From an uncultured Verrucomicrobiota bacterium (lineage in GTDB: Bacteria; Verrucomicrobiota; Verrucomicrobiia; Limisphaerales; UBA9464), in the NCBI GenBank assembly GCA_903842505.1, contig CAIMMI010000146.1, positions 1 through 56,157 on the forward strand: a DNA stretch of 56,157 nt, read 5' to 3'. The notes below the pieces were generated by a model. That model saw nothing but the letters and a program-made list of their open reading frames with translations, did no database searches and had not been told where the DNA came from. Position 1 is the first letter of the stretch, and the number at the start of each line of letters is the position of its first letter. Positions 3,661-46,618 of the stretch are shown one piece after another. The translations under genes were made by a program, and so were the position numbers.

Positions 3661-3758
3661 TATCCACAGATTTCACAGATTACACAGATGAGGGGGATCG
3701 GTCGTGCGCCTTCCTCGGCCTGCCGATAATCGGTGAAATCTGTGTAATCTGTGGATCT
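3661..3758. repeat. Inverted 'cacagatt' repeat element
   Basis: Left arm 3661-3689 and right arm 3730-3758 are both made of 11-12-bp 'cacagatt' and 'tacacagat' units. They can pair as a long imperfect hairpin across a ~40-base spacer. A related element is at 48931-49067. It lies between convergent genes (stop at 3639 on plus, stop at 3776 on minus), a typical place for REP-like elements. Confidence 0.7.
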
Positions 3759-3775
3759 CAAGCTCTCTCCCGATT

Positions 3776-4570
3776 TCAGGCATTCCTCCGTCGCATCCAG
3801 AAGACATACAACGCGGCGGCGCAGGCGCTGGCGCCGCCGGCCCAGGTTCCGGCCTCGGGGACATTCGAAAGCGCCATGGCGGTGACATCGCGATGCGGCC
3901 CGGAACTGACGAAAGTCGTCGCGGCCGTGGACGGATCCACCGAGTAGAACCAGCGATGAAACCAAGTAACGGCGTAGAGCATGCCGGTGCCATCGAACTC
4001 GATGTCACTGATGTAACTGGCCGTATCGCCGTGGGACAGGCCGCCCACGACCGTGGATGCGGCGGTGTTGGTGTTCACCTGGAAGAGGAAGTCCTGGTTG
4101 AAGCCCGTATTGCCGCTCAGGAAGAGGTCGCCATTGAACGGATTGCGGGTCACGCCTGTGATCGTGTAGCCCGTCAGACCGCTGGTGATCGGAACCGAGT
4201 AGGTCACCGTAGCCGAGCCCAGGTCGATGTAGAAGAGTTCCTGACTCGCGTTGCTGAAACCCCATAGGCCACCCGCGTCGTAGTCGAGGTCCGCGATCTG
4301 CGTGTAGGCCACGGTGAACATGGGAACCGGCGGCCCGGGCACGAAGTAAATCCCGCCAGCCGCATCGGCCTGATAGAGCAACCCGCTTGGATGCGCCGCG
4401 AGGCTGTCCGACGGCACGAAGGTGTTCGCGTAGACGGAGTCGGAGTTGTTCGCCAGGTCCACCAGGTGCACGACCTGACTGGTCGTCAGCGTGTACCCAT
4501 TGGGTCCGGCCAAGGCTGCGCTGCCGGAGAGGCCAAGGAAGGCTGCCGCAAGGCAAGAGAGGGAACGCAT
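3776..4570 (-). CDS. Exported protein with PEP-CTERM-like sorting tail
   Basis: A 264-residue protein with an N-terminal signal peptide (MRSLSCLAAAFLGLSGSAALA) and a body of repeated short beta-strand segments resembling a beta-propeller (LDYDAGGLWGFSN, RNPFNGDLFLSG, IEFDGTGMLYAVT). The C-terminus is VPEAGTW followed by ~15 hydrophobic residues and the basic end MRRRNA. This is the layout of a PEP-CTERM signal recognised by exosortase, with PEA in place of PEP. Its role is probably extracellular or envelope-associated (inference). The start is at the signal peptide; the region upstream is repeats. No exosortase gene is in this window. Confidence 0.75.
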   Translation of the reverse strand: MRSLSCLAAAFLGLSGSAALAGPNGYTLTTSQVVHLVDLANNSDSVYANTFVPSDSLAAHPSGLLYQADAAGGIYFVPGPPVPMFTVAYTQIADLDYDAGGLWGFSNASQELFYIDLGSATVTYSVPITSGLTGYTITGVTRNPFNGDLFLSGNTGFNQDFLFQVNTNTAASTVVGGLSHGDTASYISDIEFDGTGMLYAVTWFHRWFYSVDPSTAATTFVSSGPHRDVTAMALSNVPEAGTWAGGASACAAALYVFWMRRRNA

Positions 4571-4617
4571 GGGGTGAGACTGGGCACATCTTGACCCGTC
4601 CGTAAACCCACCCCCCC

Positions 4618-4665
4618 TCCCGGCGGGGAGTTTCCAGTCGCCCGATTCCAGATGCCAGACCAGCC
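4618..4665. repeat. Dispersed 'ttccagatgccagac' repeat piece
   Basis: The sequence around 'tttccagtcgcccgattccagatgccagacc' recurs near-identically at 6849-6883, and related 'ccagttcc/ggaaactgg' runs occur at 24719-24781, 31574-31614 and 32699-32727. It is a short intergenic element directly upstream of the PEP-CTERM-like gene. Confidence 0.55.
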
Positions 4666-4708
4666 CACGGCTCGACGCCTCGCCCCACCCTCGAAAGCTA
4701 ACTCCACG

Positions 4709-4797
4709 GTGGGGCGAGTGTCCTCACGAGCCGGGCGGGAGTCCCAAGTTTCAGGATTCAAGTCGCTCCAAACCTGAAACTGAAATCTTCCAACTCC
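4709..4797 (+). repeat. Dispersed intergenic repeat R1, copy near 4.7 kb
   Basis: Core 'ggggcgagtgtcctcacgag' is followed by 'gagtcccaagtttca' and a 'gaaactgaaa' arm. The same element recurs at 7011, 10877 (opposite strand), 15471, 29113, 29988, 37155, 39924 (partial), 41299 and 47897 (variant). Confidence 0.75.
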
Positions 4798-4806
4798 CGC
4801 GCCCGC

Positions 4807-6756
4807 TCAGTGGATCGTCAGGTAGGTGTAGTCCTTCAGGCCTCGCTCGTAGTCGTCGAGCAACCGCATCGCTTCGCTGGGCTTGAGGCGGTCGGATTTG
4901 ATCGCGGCATCGACCTGCGCCTTCATCTGGCGCTTCAGTTCGTTCACGTCGTACTGCACCTCGGTCAGCGAGTCGCTGATGGTGTCTCCCTCGATGACCT
5001 CCTCGATGTAGTACCCGGCGGGTTCATCCGGTTCGAGGAACACGTGGACCTCGTTGACGCGGCCGAAGAGGTTGTGGAGGTCGCCCATGATGTCCTGGTA
5101 GGCGCCCATCAGGAAGAAGCCGAGCAGGTAGGGTTCCTGGACGCCGTCGCCGCGCAACGCGTGCACCGGGAGCGTGTCGCGGACATCGCGCAGGTCGACG
5201 AACTTGTTGATCTGACCGTCGGAGTCGCAGGTGATGTCCACCAGCGTCGTCTCGCGGGTCGGCCGTTCGGTGAGCCGGTGAACCGGCATGATCGGGAACA
5301 ACTGCCCGAGCGCCCAGTGATCCAGCAACGACTGGAAGACGCTGAAATTGCAGAGGTACTGATCGCCCAGTGCGTCCTCGAGTCCCTTGATTTCGTCGGG
5401 GATGTAGGCTTGGCCGCGGAAGCTGTCGACGACGGAGCGGCTGATCTCCCAGTAGAGGGACTCGATCTTCGCCTTGTCGGGCAACTCCAGCATTCCGAGC
5501 GTGAACATCTGGTGCGCGTCCTCCTTGCGCTCCTGGGCATCGTGCCACGCCTCGCGCTTGTTCAGGCGATGCAGGTTGTCCCGCAGGTCCGCCAGTTCCC
5601 GCACGAGCCGGTGATCCTCGGGGCCATACGAGAACTTCGCTTCCTGACGCGTCTTGTCGATCGAGCCGAAGACCTCGACCAACAGGACCGAGTGATGCGC
5701 CACCAGCGCGCGACCCGATTCCGAGACGATGTCCGGATGCGGCACGCCCTCCGCGGTGCAGACGTCGGCCAGGTAATGGACGATGTCGTTGGTGTATTCC
5801 TGGAGGGAGTAATTGGTCGAAGAATCAAAGGCCGAACGCGAGCCGTCGTAGTCCACGCCCAAGCCGCCGCCCACGTCCACGAACTCGATCGGGAAGCCCA
5901 TCTTGTGGAGCTTGGCGTAGAAGCGCGAAGCCTCCTGCACCGCCTTCTTGACGGTGAGGATGTCCGGCACCTGCGAGCCGATGTGGAAGTGCAGCAGACG
6001 GAAGCAGTGGGCCAAGCCCTCGTCGCGCAGCATCTGTGTTGCCGCCAACAGATCGGAAGTGCTCAGGCCGAACTTCGCGTTTTCGCCGCCGCTCTCCGCC
6101 CACTTGCCCGCACCCTTGCTCATCAGGCGGGCCCGGATGCCGATCATCGGCTCCACACCCACGACCTTCGAGACCGAGATGATCTGTCGGAGCTCCTCGA
6201 GCTTCTCCACGACCATGATCACCTTCTTGCCGAGCTTGATGCCCTGCAGGGCGAGCTTGATGAACGGCGTGTCCTTGTAGCCGTTGCAGATGATCAGCGA
6301 ACCGAGCTGGTCCTGCAGCGCCATGCCCGCGTACAGCTCCGGCTTGCTGCCCACCTCGAGGCCGAACGAATAGGGCTTCCCCGCGTCGAGGATCTCCTCC
6401 ACGACCTCGCGGAGCTGGTTGACCTTGATGGGGAACACGCCCCGGTACTTCCCTTGGTAACCCGACTCGCTGATGGAAGTGCGGAACGCCTCGTTCAACG
6501 CCATGACCCGGTGCCGGAGGATGTCCTGGAACCGGACCAGCAACGGGAACCTCAGGTTCCTCGCCCGGGCCTCCTCGACGAGATCCATGAGGTCCACCTC
6601 GACCCCATTCTGCAGCGGCTTCGCCACCACATGCCCCTCGGCGTTGACGTCGAAGTATCCCGCGCCCCAACGATCGACGTTGTAGAGGCTCCGTGCTGCC
6701 GCAATGTCCCAGACCGGTTCGGCGCCGGCAGGAGGAACCATGGAAGAATCACTCAT
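4807..6756 (-). CDS. speA: Biosynthetic arginine decarboxylase
   Basis: A 649-residue enzyme, close to the ~658 residues of E. coli SpeA, that converts arginine to agmatine, the first step of the agmatine route to putrescine. Visible hallmarks are the PLP-lysine motif FPIKVNQ (Lys111), the HFHIGSQ and DVGGGLGVDYDG segments of the alanine-racemase-like barrel, SESGRALVAHHS, and the catalytic CDSDG loop near residue 510. The start at 6756 (MSDSSMVPP) is chosen because the frame further upstream runs through intergenic repeats. The gene stands alone. The nearest minus-strand genes are separated by repeat spacers on both sides, so it is probably transcribed by itself. Confidence 0.95.
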   Translation of the reverse strand: MSDSSMVPPAGAEPVWDIAAARSLYNVDRWGAGYFDVNAEGHVVAKPLQNGVEVDLMDLVEEARARNLRFPLLVRFQDILRHRVMALNEAFRTSISESGYQGKYRGVFPIKVNQLREVVEEILDAGKPYSFGLEVGSKPELYAGMALQDQLGSLIICNGYKDTPFIKLALQGIKLGKKVIMVVEKLEELRQIISVSKVVGVEPMIGIRARLMSKGAGKWAESGGENAKFGLSTSDLLAATQMLRDEGLAHCFRLLHFHIGSQVPDILTVKKAVQEASRFYAKLHKMGFPIEFVDVGGGLGVDYDGSRSAFDSSTNYSLQEYTNDIVHYLADVCTAEGVPHPDIVSESGRALVAHHSVLLVEVFGSIDKTRQEAKFSYGPEDHRLVRELADLRDNLHRLNKREAWHDAQERKEDAHQMFTLGMLELPDKAKIESLYWEISRSVVDSFRGQAYIPDEIKGLEDALGDQYLCNFSVFQSLLDHWALGQLFPIMPVHRLTERPTRETTLVDITCDSDGQINKFVDLRDVRDTLPVHALRGDGVQEPYLLGFFLMGAYQDIMGDLHNLFGRVNEVHVFLEPDEPAGYYIEEVIEGDTISDSLTEVQYDVNELKRQMKAQVDAAIKSDRLKPSEAMRLLDDYERGLKDYTYLTIH

Positions 6757-42547: not shown

Positions 42548-43450
42548 ATGAATTCCGTACCCAAAGGATGGTTGGCAGCGGTCCTCGCCCTGGTGACGAC
42601 GGCAGCCTGCGCCGCGGACAAGACGGTTCTCCTCATCGCCGGACGCCCCAGCCATCCCCCGGGAATGCATGAATTCCGGGCCGGGATGATGCTCTTCCAG
42701 ACCTGCCTCGAAGGCGTCCCCGGCCTGAAGGTCCAGGTCGCCTCCAATGGCTGGCCCACCAAGGTCGAGGGCGACAAACGCGTCGATGACAACGCTGCCT
42801 TCGAGGGCGTCGACGCCGTCGTCATCTACGCCGACGGCGGCGGCGGCCATCCGGCCCTCCAGAACAACCGCACCCAACTCTTCGACTCCCTCGCCAGGAA
42901 GGGCGTCGGCCTCGGCTTCGCCCATTACGGCGTCGAAGTCCCCAAGGGCGATCCCGGCGCCGCCATGCACCGCTGGGTCGGCGGGTACTACGAGCACCAG
43001 TTCAGCGTGAACCCGATGTGGAAGCCGGAGTTCAAGTCCTTCCCCGTCCACCCGGTCACCCGCGGCGTGAAGCCCTTCGCCACCCACGACGAATGGTACT
43101 TCAACATGCGCTGGGTTCCCGGCCAGAAGGGCGTCACCCCACTCCTCGTCGCCACCCCGGACGAAAAGGTCCGCCGCGGCCCCTACGTCTACCCTCAGGG
43201 GCCTTATGACCACATCGTCGCCGATGCCGGCCGCGCCGAAACGATGATGTGGGTCTGCGAACGCGAGGACGGCGGACGTGGATTCGGCTTCACGGGCGGT
43301 CACACCCATCGGAACTGGGCCGACGCCAACCAACGCAAGATCCTGCTGAACGCGGTCTTGTGGATCAGCAAGCTCGAGGTCCCGGCCAATGGCGTCGTGT
43401 CCACCCCCTCCGAGGACACCCTGGTCGCCAACCAGGACAAGAAAAAGTAG
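42548..43450 (+). CDS. Secreted ThuA-like domain protein
   Basis: A 300-residue exported protein. A signal peptide (MNSVPKGWLAAVLALVTTAACA) precedes the ThuA/glutamine-amidotransferase-like fold (KTVLLIAGRPSHPPGMHEFRAG, VVIYADGGGGHPA, VGLGFAHYGVEVP, HRWVGGYYEHQF, FTGGHTHRNWADANQRKILLNAVLW). ThuA-like proteins are linked to trehalose or other sugar use, but the enzymatic role is unproven. It ends in a KKK tail. It lies 45 bases upstream of the DUF3570 gene on the same strand, but is more likely an independent unit. Confidence 0.88.
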   Translation: MNSVPKGWLAAVLALVTTAACAADKTVLLIAGRPSHPPGMHEFRAGMMLFQTCLEGVPGLKVQVASNGWPTKVEGDKRVDDNAAFEGVDAVVIYADGGGGHPALQNNRTQLFDSLARKGVGLGFAHYGVEVPKGDPGAAMHRWVGGYYEHQFSVNPMWKPEFKSFPVHPVTRGVKPFATHDEWYFNMRWVPGQKGVTPLLVATPDEKVRRGPYVYPQGPYDHIVADAGRAETMMWVCEREDGGRGFGFTGGHTHRNWADANQRKILLNAVLWISKLEVPANGVVSTPSEDTLVANQDKKK

Positions 43451-43495: not shown

Positions 43496-44818
43496 ATGAA
43501 GACGCCGATCACCCCGGACGAACCCGCCTCCCTCACCGCCTGGCGCCCCCATCTCTTCGCCTGGGCCCTGTCCTGCGTGCTCCTCGTCTTCCCCTTCCGC
43601 CGTGGCCAGGCCGAGAACCGCGCCGAATACCGGTACGAGGATTACCGCGAGGACGACGACCGGATGCAGGTCCAGACCCACAGCGTCTGGTTCGAATACG
43701 AACTCCACCAGAAGGTCACCGCCCGCGGGTCCTACGTGAACGACGCCCTCTCCGGTGCCACCCCCACCGGTGGACCCGGCCTGCCCGGCGAAAAGTACGA
43801 GTCCGTCCGCATCCAGGATGAACGCAATGCTGGCTTCCTCGAAACCGCCATCCGCGCCGGTCGCACCACCACCACTCCCCAGATCTCCTACAGCGAAGAG
43901 AGTGACTACCGCTCCCTCGGCATCTCCCTCACCGAGGCCATCGACTTCAACCAGCGCAACACAACCCTCATCCTCGGCGTCGCCCGCGCCAACGACGAGG
44001 TCAGCCGCCGCGGTTGGGATTACTACCTCTACAAGGGCAACTGGGACTTCCTGGTCGGGATCAATCAGGTCCTCGATCCCCGCACCGTCGTCACCTTCAA
44101 CCTGACCTTCGGCTACGCCGACGGTTACCTCACCGATCCCTACAAGGGCATCAACATCTCGCTGGACCTCCCGCCGTACGGCCCATACGACCCAGAAGAC
44201 AACACGGACTTCGATACCCGACCCGACGTCACCAACGACCGCGAACGCCGCCCCAGCCACCGCTTCAAGCAGGTCGCCTTTGCCGGCATCACCCACCTCT
44301 TCGCCCCGGTCAACGGCTCCCTCGACGCCAACTACCGCTTCCACCACGACGATTGGGGCATCATCGCCCATACCGTCCAGCTCACCTGGAACCAGAAACT
44401 CTGGAAGCGGCTGACCCTGTCGCCCCTCTTCCGCTACCACCGCCAGGGCGCGGCGGACTTCTACCGTCTGCGCGTCGATTCCGACACCAGCTTCGCCGGT
44501 TCCCGGGTGGCCTTCGGTCTCGACAATTCCTTCGCCGGTGCCGAAGGGGACCCCGGGTTCGACGACGCCCTCGCCGATCCCGCCAACTTCCAGATCATCT
44601 CCGTCCCGTTCGCCCCGGATTACTACTCCGCCGACTACCGTCTCAGCGAACTGCAGACCTTTACCTTCGGGATGACCGCCGCCATCGAACTCCACGAAAA
44701 CATCTCCCTCGTGCTCGGCTACAAACGCTACCTGATGGAGGGACTCGACGGCAGGACCGCCCAGGATGTCTACCCAGACGCCAATATCTTCACCATCGGC
44801 CTGAACGGACGGTTCTGA
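43496..44818 (+). CDS. DUF3570 outer-membrane barrel protein with candidate FMN-attachment motif
   Basis: A 440-residue protein with a late-cleaving N-terminal signal (hydrophobic residues ~18-33). The body is a series of aromatic-rich amphipathic strands (TVVTFNLTFGYADGYL, ANYRFHHDDWGIIAHTVQLTWNQKLW, LSPLFRYHRQG, TFTFGMTAAIELHENISLVLGYKRYL) ending in a C-terminal Phe, as outer-membrane barrels do. This fits DUF3570. At residues 83-89 is DALSGAT (43742-43762), the Dxx(S/T)GAT motif that ApbE uses for covalent FMN attachment to Thr. The next gene is apbE. It is probably a surface flavoprotein in electron transfer (inference). Confidence 0.85.
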   Translation: MKTPITPDEPASLTAWRPHLFAWALSCVLLVFPFRRGQAENRAEYRYEDYREDDDRMQVQTHSVWFEYELHQKVTARGSYVNDALSGATPTGGPGLPGEKYESVRIQDERNAGFLETAIRAGRTTTTPQISYSEESDYRSLGISLTEAIDFNQRNTTLILGVARANDEVSRRGWDYYLYKGNWDFLVGINQVLDPRTVVTFNLTFGYADGYLTDPYKGINISLDLPPYGPYDPEDNTDFDTRPDVTNDRERRPSHRFKQVAFAGITHLFAPVNGSLDANYRFHHDDWGIIAHTVQLTWNQKLWKRLTLSPLFRYHRQGAADFYRLRVDSDTSFAGSRVAFGLDNSFAGAEGDPGFDDALADPANFQIISVPFAPDYYSADYRLSELQTFTFGMTAAIELHENISLVLGYKRYLMEGLDGRTAQDVYPDANIFTIGLNGRF

Positions 44819-44832
44819 CCCTCCCCCTCCCT

Positions 44833-45864
44833 GTGCCCGCTTCCGTCGAACCATCCCACCCTTCCGCGACCGGCGCCCCGCTGCGCCCGCCGCCGGTCGC
44901 GGATGTCCTCGCGCGGATCCGCGGCAACGCGCGGCTCGAAACCGCCCATGGTTCCTCCGAACTGACGTTCCAGGCCATGGGCACCCGCTGCCGGGTGTCC
45001 TTCGCCGGGCCCCAACCCTCCCGCACCGCCGACCACGTCCTCGCGTGGGTCGCCACCTTCGAGGCCCGCTACAGCCGTTTTCTACCCGATAGCTGGGTCT
45101 CCCAGATCAACGAGCGCGCCGGCGGTGATTGGATCGAACTCGATCCCGAAGCCCACCAACTCCTCGGTCTCTGCTCCCAACTGGTCTTCCTGACCCGCGG
45201 CATCCTCGACCCCTCGTCCCTTCCGCTGATCCGGCTCTGGGATTGGAAGCAGGCCCGCGTGCCCTCCGATCCCGAAATCGAGGCCGCCCGCACCCTCACC
45301 GGCTGGAAGCAGGTCCAACTCGCCCCGGGCCGCATCCGACTCCCCCGCGCCGGCATGGCCATCGACCTCGGCGGTGTTGGCAAGGAGTTCGCCGTCGATC
45401 AGGTGATCCTCCTCCTCGCCAGCCTCGGCGTCCGCTCCGCCCTCGTGGACTTCGGCGCCGATATCCGCGTCCTCGGCCTGCCCCACGACGGCCGGCCCGC
45501 CTGGAAAATCGGACTCGAAGACCCGCGAAACCCAGGCCTCGCCTGGACCCACCTCGTCGTCCGCGAAGGGGCCGTCGCCACCTCCGGCGACTACATCCGC
45601 GGCTTCACCTCCGGTTCCCGACGCTTTGGCCACATCCTCGACCCCCGCACCGGGCGACCGGTCGACAACCGCGTCCTCGCAGCCAGCGTCCTCGCACCTT
45701 CCTGCACTCAGGCCGGCATGCTGAGCACCGCGCTCTGCGTGATGGGACCTGAGGAAGGCCGGCGTCTCCTCGCCAGCTCACCCGGCGTCGAGGGCTGCAT
45801 TTTCTCCACCGATGGCATTGTCACTTCCCCGAGATTCTATGAACACGTCACGCAGGCAGTTTAA
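44833..45864 (+). CDS. apbE: FAD:protein FMN transferase (ApbE)
   Basis: A 343-residue flavin transferase that cleaves FAD and links FMN to Thr in target proteins. Motifs are [66 protein letters not shown] and the [15 protein letters not shown] metal/flavin loop. The most upstream usable start after the DUF3570 stop is GTG at 44833, 14 bases on. From there no signal peptide or lipobox appears, which is odd because ApbE normally works outside the cytoplasm. Its end overlaps the thioredoxin gene by 26 bases, so translation is coupled. Confidence 0.9.
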
Positions 45865-46348
45865 CCGCTGGATCACCGTCACCCTGGCCGCCGTCTGGAC
45901 CGGGCTCATCGCCCTCGCCGGCACCCCGAAGGCCGGCGAGGCTTTCCCGGACCTCGCCAAGGCCAACCTCGAAGGCAAGCTCCCCGACCTGGCCGGGAAA
46001 ATTGTCGTGGTCGATTTCTGGGCTTCCTGGTGCAGCCCCTGCAAGAAGGCCCTCCCCGTCCTCGCCGAACTCAGCAAGGAGTACGGCCCCAAGGGCGTTG
46101 TCTTCGTCGCCGTCAGCCTCGATGAGGACAAGGCCGACATGGATGCCTTCCTGAAGAAGAATCCCCTCCCCTTCGCCGTCGTACGCGATCCCAAGGGCAA
46201 GCTCGCTGAATCCCTGAACATCCAGGGCATTCCCGTCTCCTTCGTCATCGCTCCGGACGGCAAGGTCGCCGCCGCCCACAATGGCTTCGAAGGGGACAAG
46301 ACCCGCGCCAAGTACGTCACCCAGCTCGATCAATTGCTCAAGAAGTGA
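45839..46348 (+). CDS. TlpA-family exported thioredoxin-like protein
   Basis: A 169-residue membrane-anchored or exported thiol-disulfide oxidoreductase. The N-terminal [22 protein letters not shown] starts with an RR pair and hydrophobic segment. The thioredoxin fold has the active site WCSPC (Cys65, Cys68) in [15 protein letters not shown], and cis-Pro in [10 protein letters not shown]. Start at 45839 keeps the signal segment whole. It overlaps apbE by 26 bases and is followed by the DUF4266 gene. The partner may be the Cys-rich end of DUF4266 or a heme/flavin protein in this cluster (inference). Confidence 0.9.
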
Positions 46349-46387: not shown

Positions 46388-46618
46388 ATGAAACACTGCC
46401 ATCGCCACCGCCTGGCCCTCCTCGCCATCGCCGCTCTCTCCCTGCTCTCCACCGGGTGTCAGACGGTCAAGCCGTGGCAACGCGGCAGCCTCAGTGACCC
46501 CATCATGCGGCCCGATCGCGACCCGATCGGACTCGCGCTCTCCGAACACGTCTGGTTCTCCCGCGAAGCCGCAGCGGGCGGCCGGGGCGTTGGCGGCGGT
46601 GGATGCGGCTGCAATTGA
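46388..46618 (+). CDS. DUF4266 small lipoprotein
   Basis: A 76-residue lipoprotein: signal peptide and lipobox STGC (Cys24), then the very conserved DUF4266 body VKPWQRGSLSDPIMRPDRDPIG, ALSEHVWFSREAAAGG and the Gly/Cys-rich end GVGGGGCGCN. The two C-terminal Cys (C-G-C) could form a disulfide or bind metal or flavin. It stands between the TlpA gene and the Ig-like gene. DUF4266 is typically found with DUF3570, ApbE and thioredoxin genes. Its role is unknown; it may anchor or couple redox to the barrel. Confidence 0.9.
   Translation: MKHCHRHRLALLAIAALSLLSTGCQTVKPWQRGSLSDPIMRPDRDPIGLALSEHVWFSREAAAGGRGVGGGGCGCN

Follow-up and report, generated by a model that had tools for sequence, protein, structure and literature searches.

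The FMN_bind proteins NqrC and RnfG carry a flavin-attachment motif of the DxxSGAT type. They have the type of motif and the enzyme family, ApbE, in common with the DUF3570 protein described here, which in contrast is a predicted outer-membrane barrel without an FMN_bind match.

The closest described system is that of Chlorobium luteolum, in which the cognate ApbE flavinylates the DUF3570 protein at two [S/T]GA[S/T] motifs, and in which flavinylation is lost only when the serines of both motifs are replaced (Meheust et al. 2021, PMC8238504). The coexpression in that study used signal-truncated forms, so modification in the cytoplasm is possible. According to excerpts of the same paper, DUF3570, ApbE, a thioredoxin-like protein and DUF4266 cluster with or without DsbD, 316 clusters lacking DsbD are counted, and the VIT1 iron transporter occurs in 25 DUF3570 clusters. 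Excerpts of a second paper (PMC12052999) describe most characterised ApbEs as periplasmic lipoproteins, a location needed for at least one of them, as well as a cytoplasmic ApbE of Klebsiella pneumoniae. The latter acts with fumarate reductase and also has no signal peptide; its substrate is soluble and cytoplasmic, whereas the linked substrate candidate at the locus described here is an exported outer-membrane protein. In the open-access papers searched, PMC8238504 is the one found to name DUF3570 or DUF4266, and the excerpts of PMC8238504, PMC11334425 and PMC12052999 mention neither a DUF3570 barrel topology nor a leaderless ApbE tied to DUF3570. Flavinylation of DUF3570 as such is known.

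The locus shares with the C. luteolum system the PF12094 domain, a cognate apbE in the cluster, the [S/T]GA[S/T] motif and the thioredoxin and DUF4266 neighbours. It differs in having one motif instead of two, a threonine instead of a serine as the acceptor, no DsbD in the cluster, and an ApbE without a signal peptide (the signal peptide was truncated from the constructs in PMC8238504). The reading of the motif as an FMN site is mostly already published for DUF3570. What is new here is the single-site barrel, the leaderless cognate ApbE and the predicted outward placement of the flavin in the barrel lumen.

The DUF3570 gene and its candidate FMN acceptor

The window, i.e. the whole stretch of 56,157 nucleotides that was analysed, is a single contig from a genome of 5.2 Mb (362 contigs, 95.6% complete). 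Its relevant features are as follows.

42548–43450, + strand: ThuA-like gene upstream of DUF3570, also found beside the split-off apbE-thioredoxin pair in relatives (Pfam PF06283, 2.1e-14)
43496–44818, + strand: DUF3570 gene, 440 aa, predicted 16-stranded outer-membrane β-barrel and putative FMN acceptor protein (Pfam PF12094, 2.6e-61; model; barrel fold matches)
43496–43612, + strand: predicted signal peptide of DUF3570, residues 1–39, ending ...RRGQA|EN (read from the hydrophobic N-terminus)
43715–43765, + strand: predicted strand β3, residues 74–90, with the motif at its extracellular end (model and parity calculation)
43742–43762, + strand: DALSGAT motif, residues 83–89, with T89 (43760–43762) as the predicted FMN acceptor (translation; homologue experiment in PMC8238504; acceptor S/T in 78/78)
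43892–43915, + strand: SxExDYxS, residues 133–140, predicted part of an extracellular lumen pocket (S133, E135, D137 and S140 invariant in 78/78)
44833–45864, + strand: apbE, FAD:protein FMN transferase of the GKE-type subfamily, without a signal peptide (Pfam PF02424, 2.1e-71; no hydrophobic N-terminus)
45839–46348, + strand: TlpA-like thioredoxin with WCSPC and an N-terminal signal (Pfam Thioredoxin_8, 5.6e-23; start taken as the second ATG, read from the sequence)
46388–46618, + strand: DUF4266 small lipoprotein with the C-terminal sequence GGGCGCN (CxC) (Pfam PF14086, 1.4e-21)

The window protein scores 208 bits against PF12094, for which the gathering score is 25. The original prediction had placed a DALSGAT motif at 43742–43762 and apbE 14 bases past the DUF3570 gene. 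Both placements are borne out: translation puts the motif at residues 83–89 of the 440-residue frame, and the DUF3570 stop codon ends at 44818 while the assumed GTG start of apbE lies at 44833. DALSGAT is the sole [ST]GA[ST] in the protein. Family composition predicts 0.0047 exact Dxx[ST]GA[ST] matches in a protein of 440 residues, and the motif occupies a fixed, conserved alignment column, so it is not a chance occurrence.

To follow the site through the family, 88 DUF3570 open reading frames were aligned. Fragments of locus L110 were left out of this set, and eight of the loci L113–L134 were kept, the others being repeats of contigs already present; removal of ten short or split frames gave a 78-row alignment of mature proteins. 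The acceptor column holds 63 threonines, 15 serines and nothing else. Over all 88 rows it reads T 69, S 16, Q 1 and two gaps, with the glutamine coming from one split piece of L095. The anticipated conservation of D83, S86, G87 and T89 therefore holds without exception for the acceptor (78/78) and less strictly for the rest: D83 is Asp in 69/78 and Asn in 9/78, S86 is Ser or Thr in 67/78 (S 64, T 3, with A 9 and V 2 making up the remainder), and G87 is kept in 75/78. A88 and P90 also reach 75/78, and G92, like P90, is nearly as conserved as the motif that it adjoins. The exact Dxx[ST]GA[ST] pattern is present in 52 of the 78 homologues; some members deviate from the textbook form, with Ala or Val in place of S86 or Asn in place of D83.

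A second [ST]GA[ST] occurs among the 88 frames only in L101 and L104, where it lies in a low-complexity insertion, and in an overlapping frame of L079. In a subgroup of ten loci (L081–L083, L093, L095, L098, L100, L101, L104 and L105) the site reads N[AS]ISGA[TS]P or a near form and is followed by a long insertion rich in Ala, Pro, Ser and Thr. Within this insertion there is frequently another AGATP or AATP, which may be an additional acceptor carried by a flexible arm.

PF12094 was found in 40/58 relatives and in 30/288 genomes drawn from the phylum. A scan of genome contigs yielded 22 DUF3570 loci, all of them from Verrucomicrobia-type or Akkermansia MAGs, and in the plasmid collection DUF3570 occurs outside the phylum only in three Vibrio records and one Hymenobacter record.

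The homologue experiment in C. luteolum (PMC8238504) and the presence of Ser or Thr at the acceptor position in all 63 copies that lie beside apbE support the proposal that DALSGAT is an FMN-attachment site. By analogy to that homologue, T89 is very probably the covalent FMN acceptor of the DUF3570 barrel.

Linkage of DUF3570 to ApbE and the compartment of the enzyme

It had been proposed that the motif would be conserved only when apbE is adjacent. This rule fails. Beside apbE the acceptor is kept in 63/63 copies and the exact motif in 39/63; where apbE is non-adjacent, with more than 1.5 kb of sequence available downstream, the corresponding figures are 14/14 and 12/14, and the one copy at a contig end has both. 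The genomes that were checked encode an ApbE of the same subfamily elsewhere, which explains the failure, and in several of them the operon is split. In eight genomes with non-adjacent copies, a single ApbE at another site matches the window ApbE at 1e-111 to 1e-140, whereas the other ApbEs of these genomes match it at only about 1e-20 to 1e-31; in the ninth (G340), a same-subfamily ApbE lies on another contig. The cluster-type thioredoxin accompanies the detached ApbE in 6/9 loci, and ThuA does so in 3/5 of those scanned (L135, L141 and L152); apart from these two, the five scanned loci show no shared neighbour. Several genomes have the operon divided into a thuA-apbE-thioredoxin part and a DUF3570-(thioredoxin)-DUF4266 part, with the acceptor motif kept. 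The adjacency prediction is thus wrong, but the way in which it fails ties ApbE and DUF3570 more closely together. Thioredoxin was also seen beside the detached apbE in L137, L139 and L144.

The acceptor is kept, too, in second DUF3570 copies that have their own thioredoxin and/or DUF4266 but no apbE of their own. In L053, L056, L058, L059 and L078, DUF3570 is accompanied by its own thioredoxin and DUF4266, has no adjacent apbE, and has another DUF3570 elsewhere in the genome; one ApbE may serve two barrels in these genomes.

Across the relatives, a cognate ApbE (at least 49% identity) is present in 38/40 genomes with DUF3570 and in 1/18 without it (Fisher p = 1.5e-11, with the relatives not being independent of each other). 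Profiles for ApbE and DUF4266 were applied at strict cut-offs, as looser ones strayed into other reading frames. Of the two genomes with DUF3570 but no cognate ApbE, one (G029) has a DUF3570 gene that runs off the contig end (L073), and in the other (G053) the DUF3570 and ApbE frames are both broken (L110 and L160 on G053:C45), which suggests joint decay. The converse case, G056 (83% complete), has this type of ApbE, located beside a sensor-kinase-like frame on a 3.3-kb contig, and DUF3570 was not found in it. The plasmid collection holds no close match to the ApbE: the 321 records are distant, with identities below 60% among the matches listed.

Signal calls were made by hydropathy, as the best 12-residue value at the N-terminus, and not by a signal-peptide program. 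The median for 66 cluster ApbEs is 0.73, compared with 2.29 for 81 DUF3570, 2.41 for 69 thioredoxin and 2.50 for 77 DUF4266 N-termini from the same loci, which served as positive controls. A signal peptide or lipobox is absent from 63/66 cluster ApbEs, a count that includes the ambiguous L096, and only L107–L109 look exported. Four high values (L102, L069, L043 and L051) are artefacts of starts chosen inside the core, and L110 gave no value. The core residues K184, D189, S251, G252, Y254 and H267 are kept in 66/66. The G-K-E signature is found in 63/66, with A-K-G in its place in L107–L109 and in lipoprotein ApbEs. The start of the window gene is itself uncertain: in relatives, the apbE ATG overlaps the DUF3570 stop codon (MVL), whereas the window has ACG there (44809–44817), and the GTG at 44833 was assumed.

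A Vibrio cluster (L156), from another phylum, has a similar make-up: a thioredoxin, a DUF4266 with GGGCGCN, a DUF3570 with DTVSGAS, a leaderless ApbE and a frame named DsbD-like from its sequence. This ApbE has no leader when read from the earliest start that follows the in-frame stop ahead of it. In the few cases at hand, the Hymenobacter locus L157 and L107–L109, a signal-like ApbE N-terminus goes with an SSAS form of the site. The pairing is thus of SGA[ST]P-type DUF3570 with leaderless GKE-type ApbE, and of the SSAS type with an exported-looking ApbE (AKG in L107–L109). In the Hymenobacter plasmid, apbE is in two frames (3750–5113) and the DUF4266-like end has no CxC, possibly a sign of a decaying cluster.

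The genome of the window holds no FMN_bind protein and hence no substrate of the NqrC/RnfG type, and the DUF3570 protein itself gives no match to FMN_bind PF04205. The neighbours of the other two ApbEs in this genome include no obvious substrate. It is not obvious how a leaderless ApbE would encounter an exported substrate. With the enzyme leaderless and the barrel, the thioredoxin and DUF4266 exported, attachment of the flavin in the cytoplasm before export is suggested, a proposition for which we judge the balance to be even.

The predicted barrel and the predicted position of T89

An AlphaFold2 model of the window DUF3570 protein, built on the 78-row alignment, has a pLDDT of 94.3 and a pTM of 0.89, and 16 barrel strands were counted in its strand list. 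The model matches outer-membrane barrels, solved or modelled, at Z 15–22, with a BamA model (Z 22.2, rmsd 3.3 over 274 residues), PelBC (20.5) and CdiB (17.8) among them; by sequence, a relative is absent from the solved structures up to an E value of 1. In the model, the strand number is even, the barrel spans the protein, both termini are on the short-turn side and the C-terminal residue is aromatic, this residue being F in 57/78 and W in 13/78 homologues. The N-terminus follows the signal peptide. As the long loops are on one side of the barrel, that side was taken as extracellular. A viral origin was considered and rejected, the viral-library matches being generic barrels with TM-scores of 0.13–0.44 among the first ten matches listed.

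The motif had been thought to lie in a loop between strands. The model places it instead in the last part of strand 3 (residues 74–90), ahead of a long loop, with T89 (mature residue 50) as the next-to-last residue of that strand (mature 35–51) at its long-loop end. Lipid-facing parity is odd in strand 3, so T89 and D83 would face the lumen. The parity assignment draws on hydrophobicity, which ties it to residue type. The top 60 positions by conservation are distributed unevenly over the strands: they make up 25/60 positions of the extracellular half of the lumen, 4/52 of its periplasmic half, and 3/55 and 5/56 of the lipid-facing surface. Random flipping of strand directions reaches this bias with p = 0.002, and the rank correlation of depth with conservation is weak (rho 0.14, p = 0.04). 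In the predicted structure, T89 sits in the sole strongly conserved region of the lumen. The placement is based on one predicted model, strand counting and hydrophobicity parity; on these grounds T89 probably points into the lumen from the extracellular end of strand 3, within a pocket of invariant residues.

The model of the L107 protein, which carries DYVSSAS and SGAS, has a pLDDT of 90.7 and a pTM of 0.87, and its candidate serines 59 and 73 are predicted to flank a single extracellular loop, one at each end. Such a layout would explain the family members with two sites.

Proposed flavin loading and electron transfer, and alternative readings

The genes next to apbE supply possible redox partners. 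The window thioredoxin is of the TlpA/Redoxin kind, and Thioredoxin_7 (PF13899), the model named in PMC8238504, matches it only at E 0.15. A CxC end is present in 76/77 DUF4266 homologues examined. DsbD is absent from the cluster, and the one DsbD_TM match in the genome is on another contig (G000:C209). The barrel has no cysteine in 62/78 homologues, which makes a thiol relay inside it unlikely. The cluster genes scanned by Pfam include no iron transporter and no heme protein.

We propose the following model. T89 would receive FMN from FAD through the ApbE encoded by the neighbouring gene, as in the homologue, and ApbE would flavinylate the unfolded DUF3570 precursor in the cytoplasm, before export by Sec and insertion by BAM. 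The flavin would then hand on electrons at the outer membrane or across it. These would most likely come from the periplasmic thioredoxin and from the CxC tail of DUF4266, both fed by the DsbD encoded elsewhere, and the acceptor may be outside the cell. That electrons are transferred to the outside falls somewhat short of being probable. The complete chain, in which a barrel flavinylated by the leaderless ApbE traverses Sec and BAM with FMN attached, places its flavin in the extracellular mouth of the lumen and takes electrons from the lipoprotein CxC tail as a heme-free thiol-to-flavin conduit, is put forward tentatively, as less probable still.

The Sec channel can reportedly pass bulky attachments, a finding ascribed to Bonardi et al. 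in 2011. Excerpts of a review of the pore (PMC6028853) give a width near 0.4 nm, note its unusual plasticity and cite the translocation of a cross-linked loop. Whether proteins that carry a large covalent cofactor pass the Sec channel in nature is a question that this system raises and would make directly testable.

Porin-cytochrome conduits such as MtrCAB consist of an outer-membrane barrel with redox cofactors across the outer membrane. DUF3570 resembles them as a barrel for which a similar redox role across that membrane is proposed, and Foldseek gives a weak match of the DUF3570 model to chain 6r2q_B of the Mtr complex. DUF3570 differs in its 16 strands, its putative covalent flavin, its thiol partners and the absence of a heme protein among the cluster genes scanned. 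The predicted flavin in the outer lumen near invariant residues, together with an ApbE of the cytoplasmic type, gives a testable model of outer-membrane electron transfer without cytochromes.

Three other readings have to be weighed against this model. The motif may be an FMN site that is modified in the periplasm, either by an ApbE exported through an unrecognised route or by the lipoprotein ApbE of the genome (G000:C198). The periplasmic lipoprotein nature of most characterised ApbEs, as given in the excerpts of PMC12052999, agrees with this reading, as do the lipoprotein-like N-terminus of the second ApbE in the genome (L111) and the pairing of DUF3570 with a signal-bearing ApbE in L107–L109 and in Hymenobacter L157. 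The ApbE that co-occurs with DUF3570 is nevertheless of the leaderless type, many clusters leave no room for a signal (12–30 residues from the DUF3570 stop to the ApbE core), the Vibrio enzyme is leaderless from its first available start, and against the window ApbE the lipoprotein ApbEs score no better than about 1e-20 to 1e-30. We consider periplasmic attachment rather unlikely. Alternatively, the leaderless ApbE might act on a cytoplasmic protein while the barrel motif is retained for structure, as a turn ending strand 3, and does not bind FMN. There is a precedent in the cytoplasmic enzyme and substrate of Klebsiella (excerpts of PMC12052999), P90 and G92 are nearly as conserved as the motif, and S86 varies. 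Against a structural role stand the direct flavinylation of a homologue at such a motif (PMC8238504), the tight co-occurrence and operon linkage of DUF3570 and ApbE, an acceptor that is always Ser or Thr (78/78), and the five scanned detached loci, whose only shared neighbours are ThuA and thioredoxin; we regard this reading as highly improbable.

A purpose other than outward electron transfer is also conceivable for a flavinylated barrel: it could be a pore or transporter in which the flavin performs a local step, for example the reduction of iron(III) for uptake. The VIT1-containing DUF3570 clusters reported in the excerpts of PMC8238504 point in this direction, and siderophore receptors and porins are among the best fold matches. 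Yet the cluster genes scanned lack an iron transporter, and the conserved residues crowd the extracellular end of the lumen and do not line a path through it, which leaves this role doubtful. Cytoplasmic loading of T89 followed by electron transfer at the outer membrane remains our preferred reading.

Some smaller observations concern the partner genes. A Tat route as a common feature of the thioredoxin was rejected: SRRQF is found in the window copy (45839–45880), and a loose Tat pattern occurs in 8/69 copies. The DUF4266 tail (SREA..GGRGVGGGGCGCN) hardly varies among family members, and the distance from its lipid-anchor cysteine to the end of the protein is 53 residues in 41/54 copies with a pattern-recognised lipobox.
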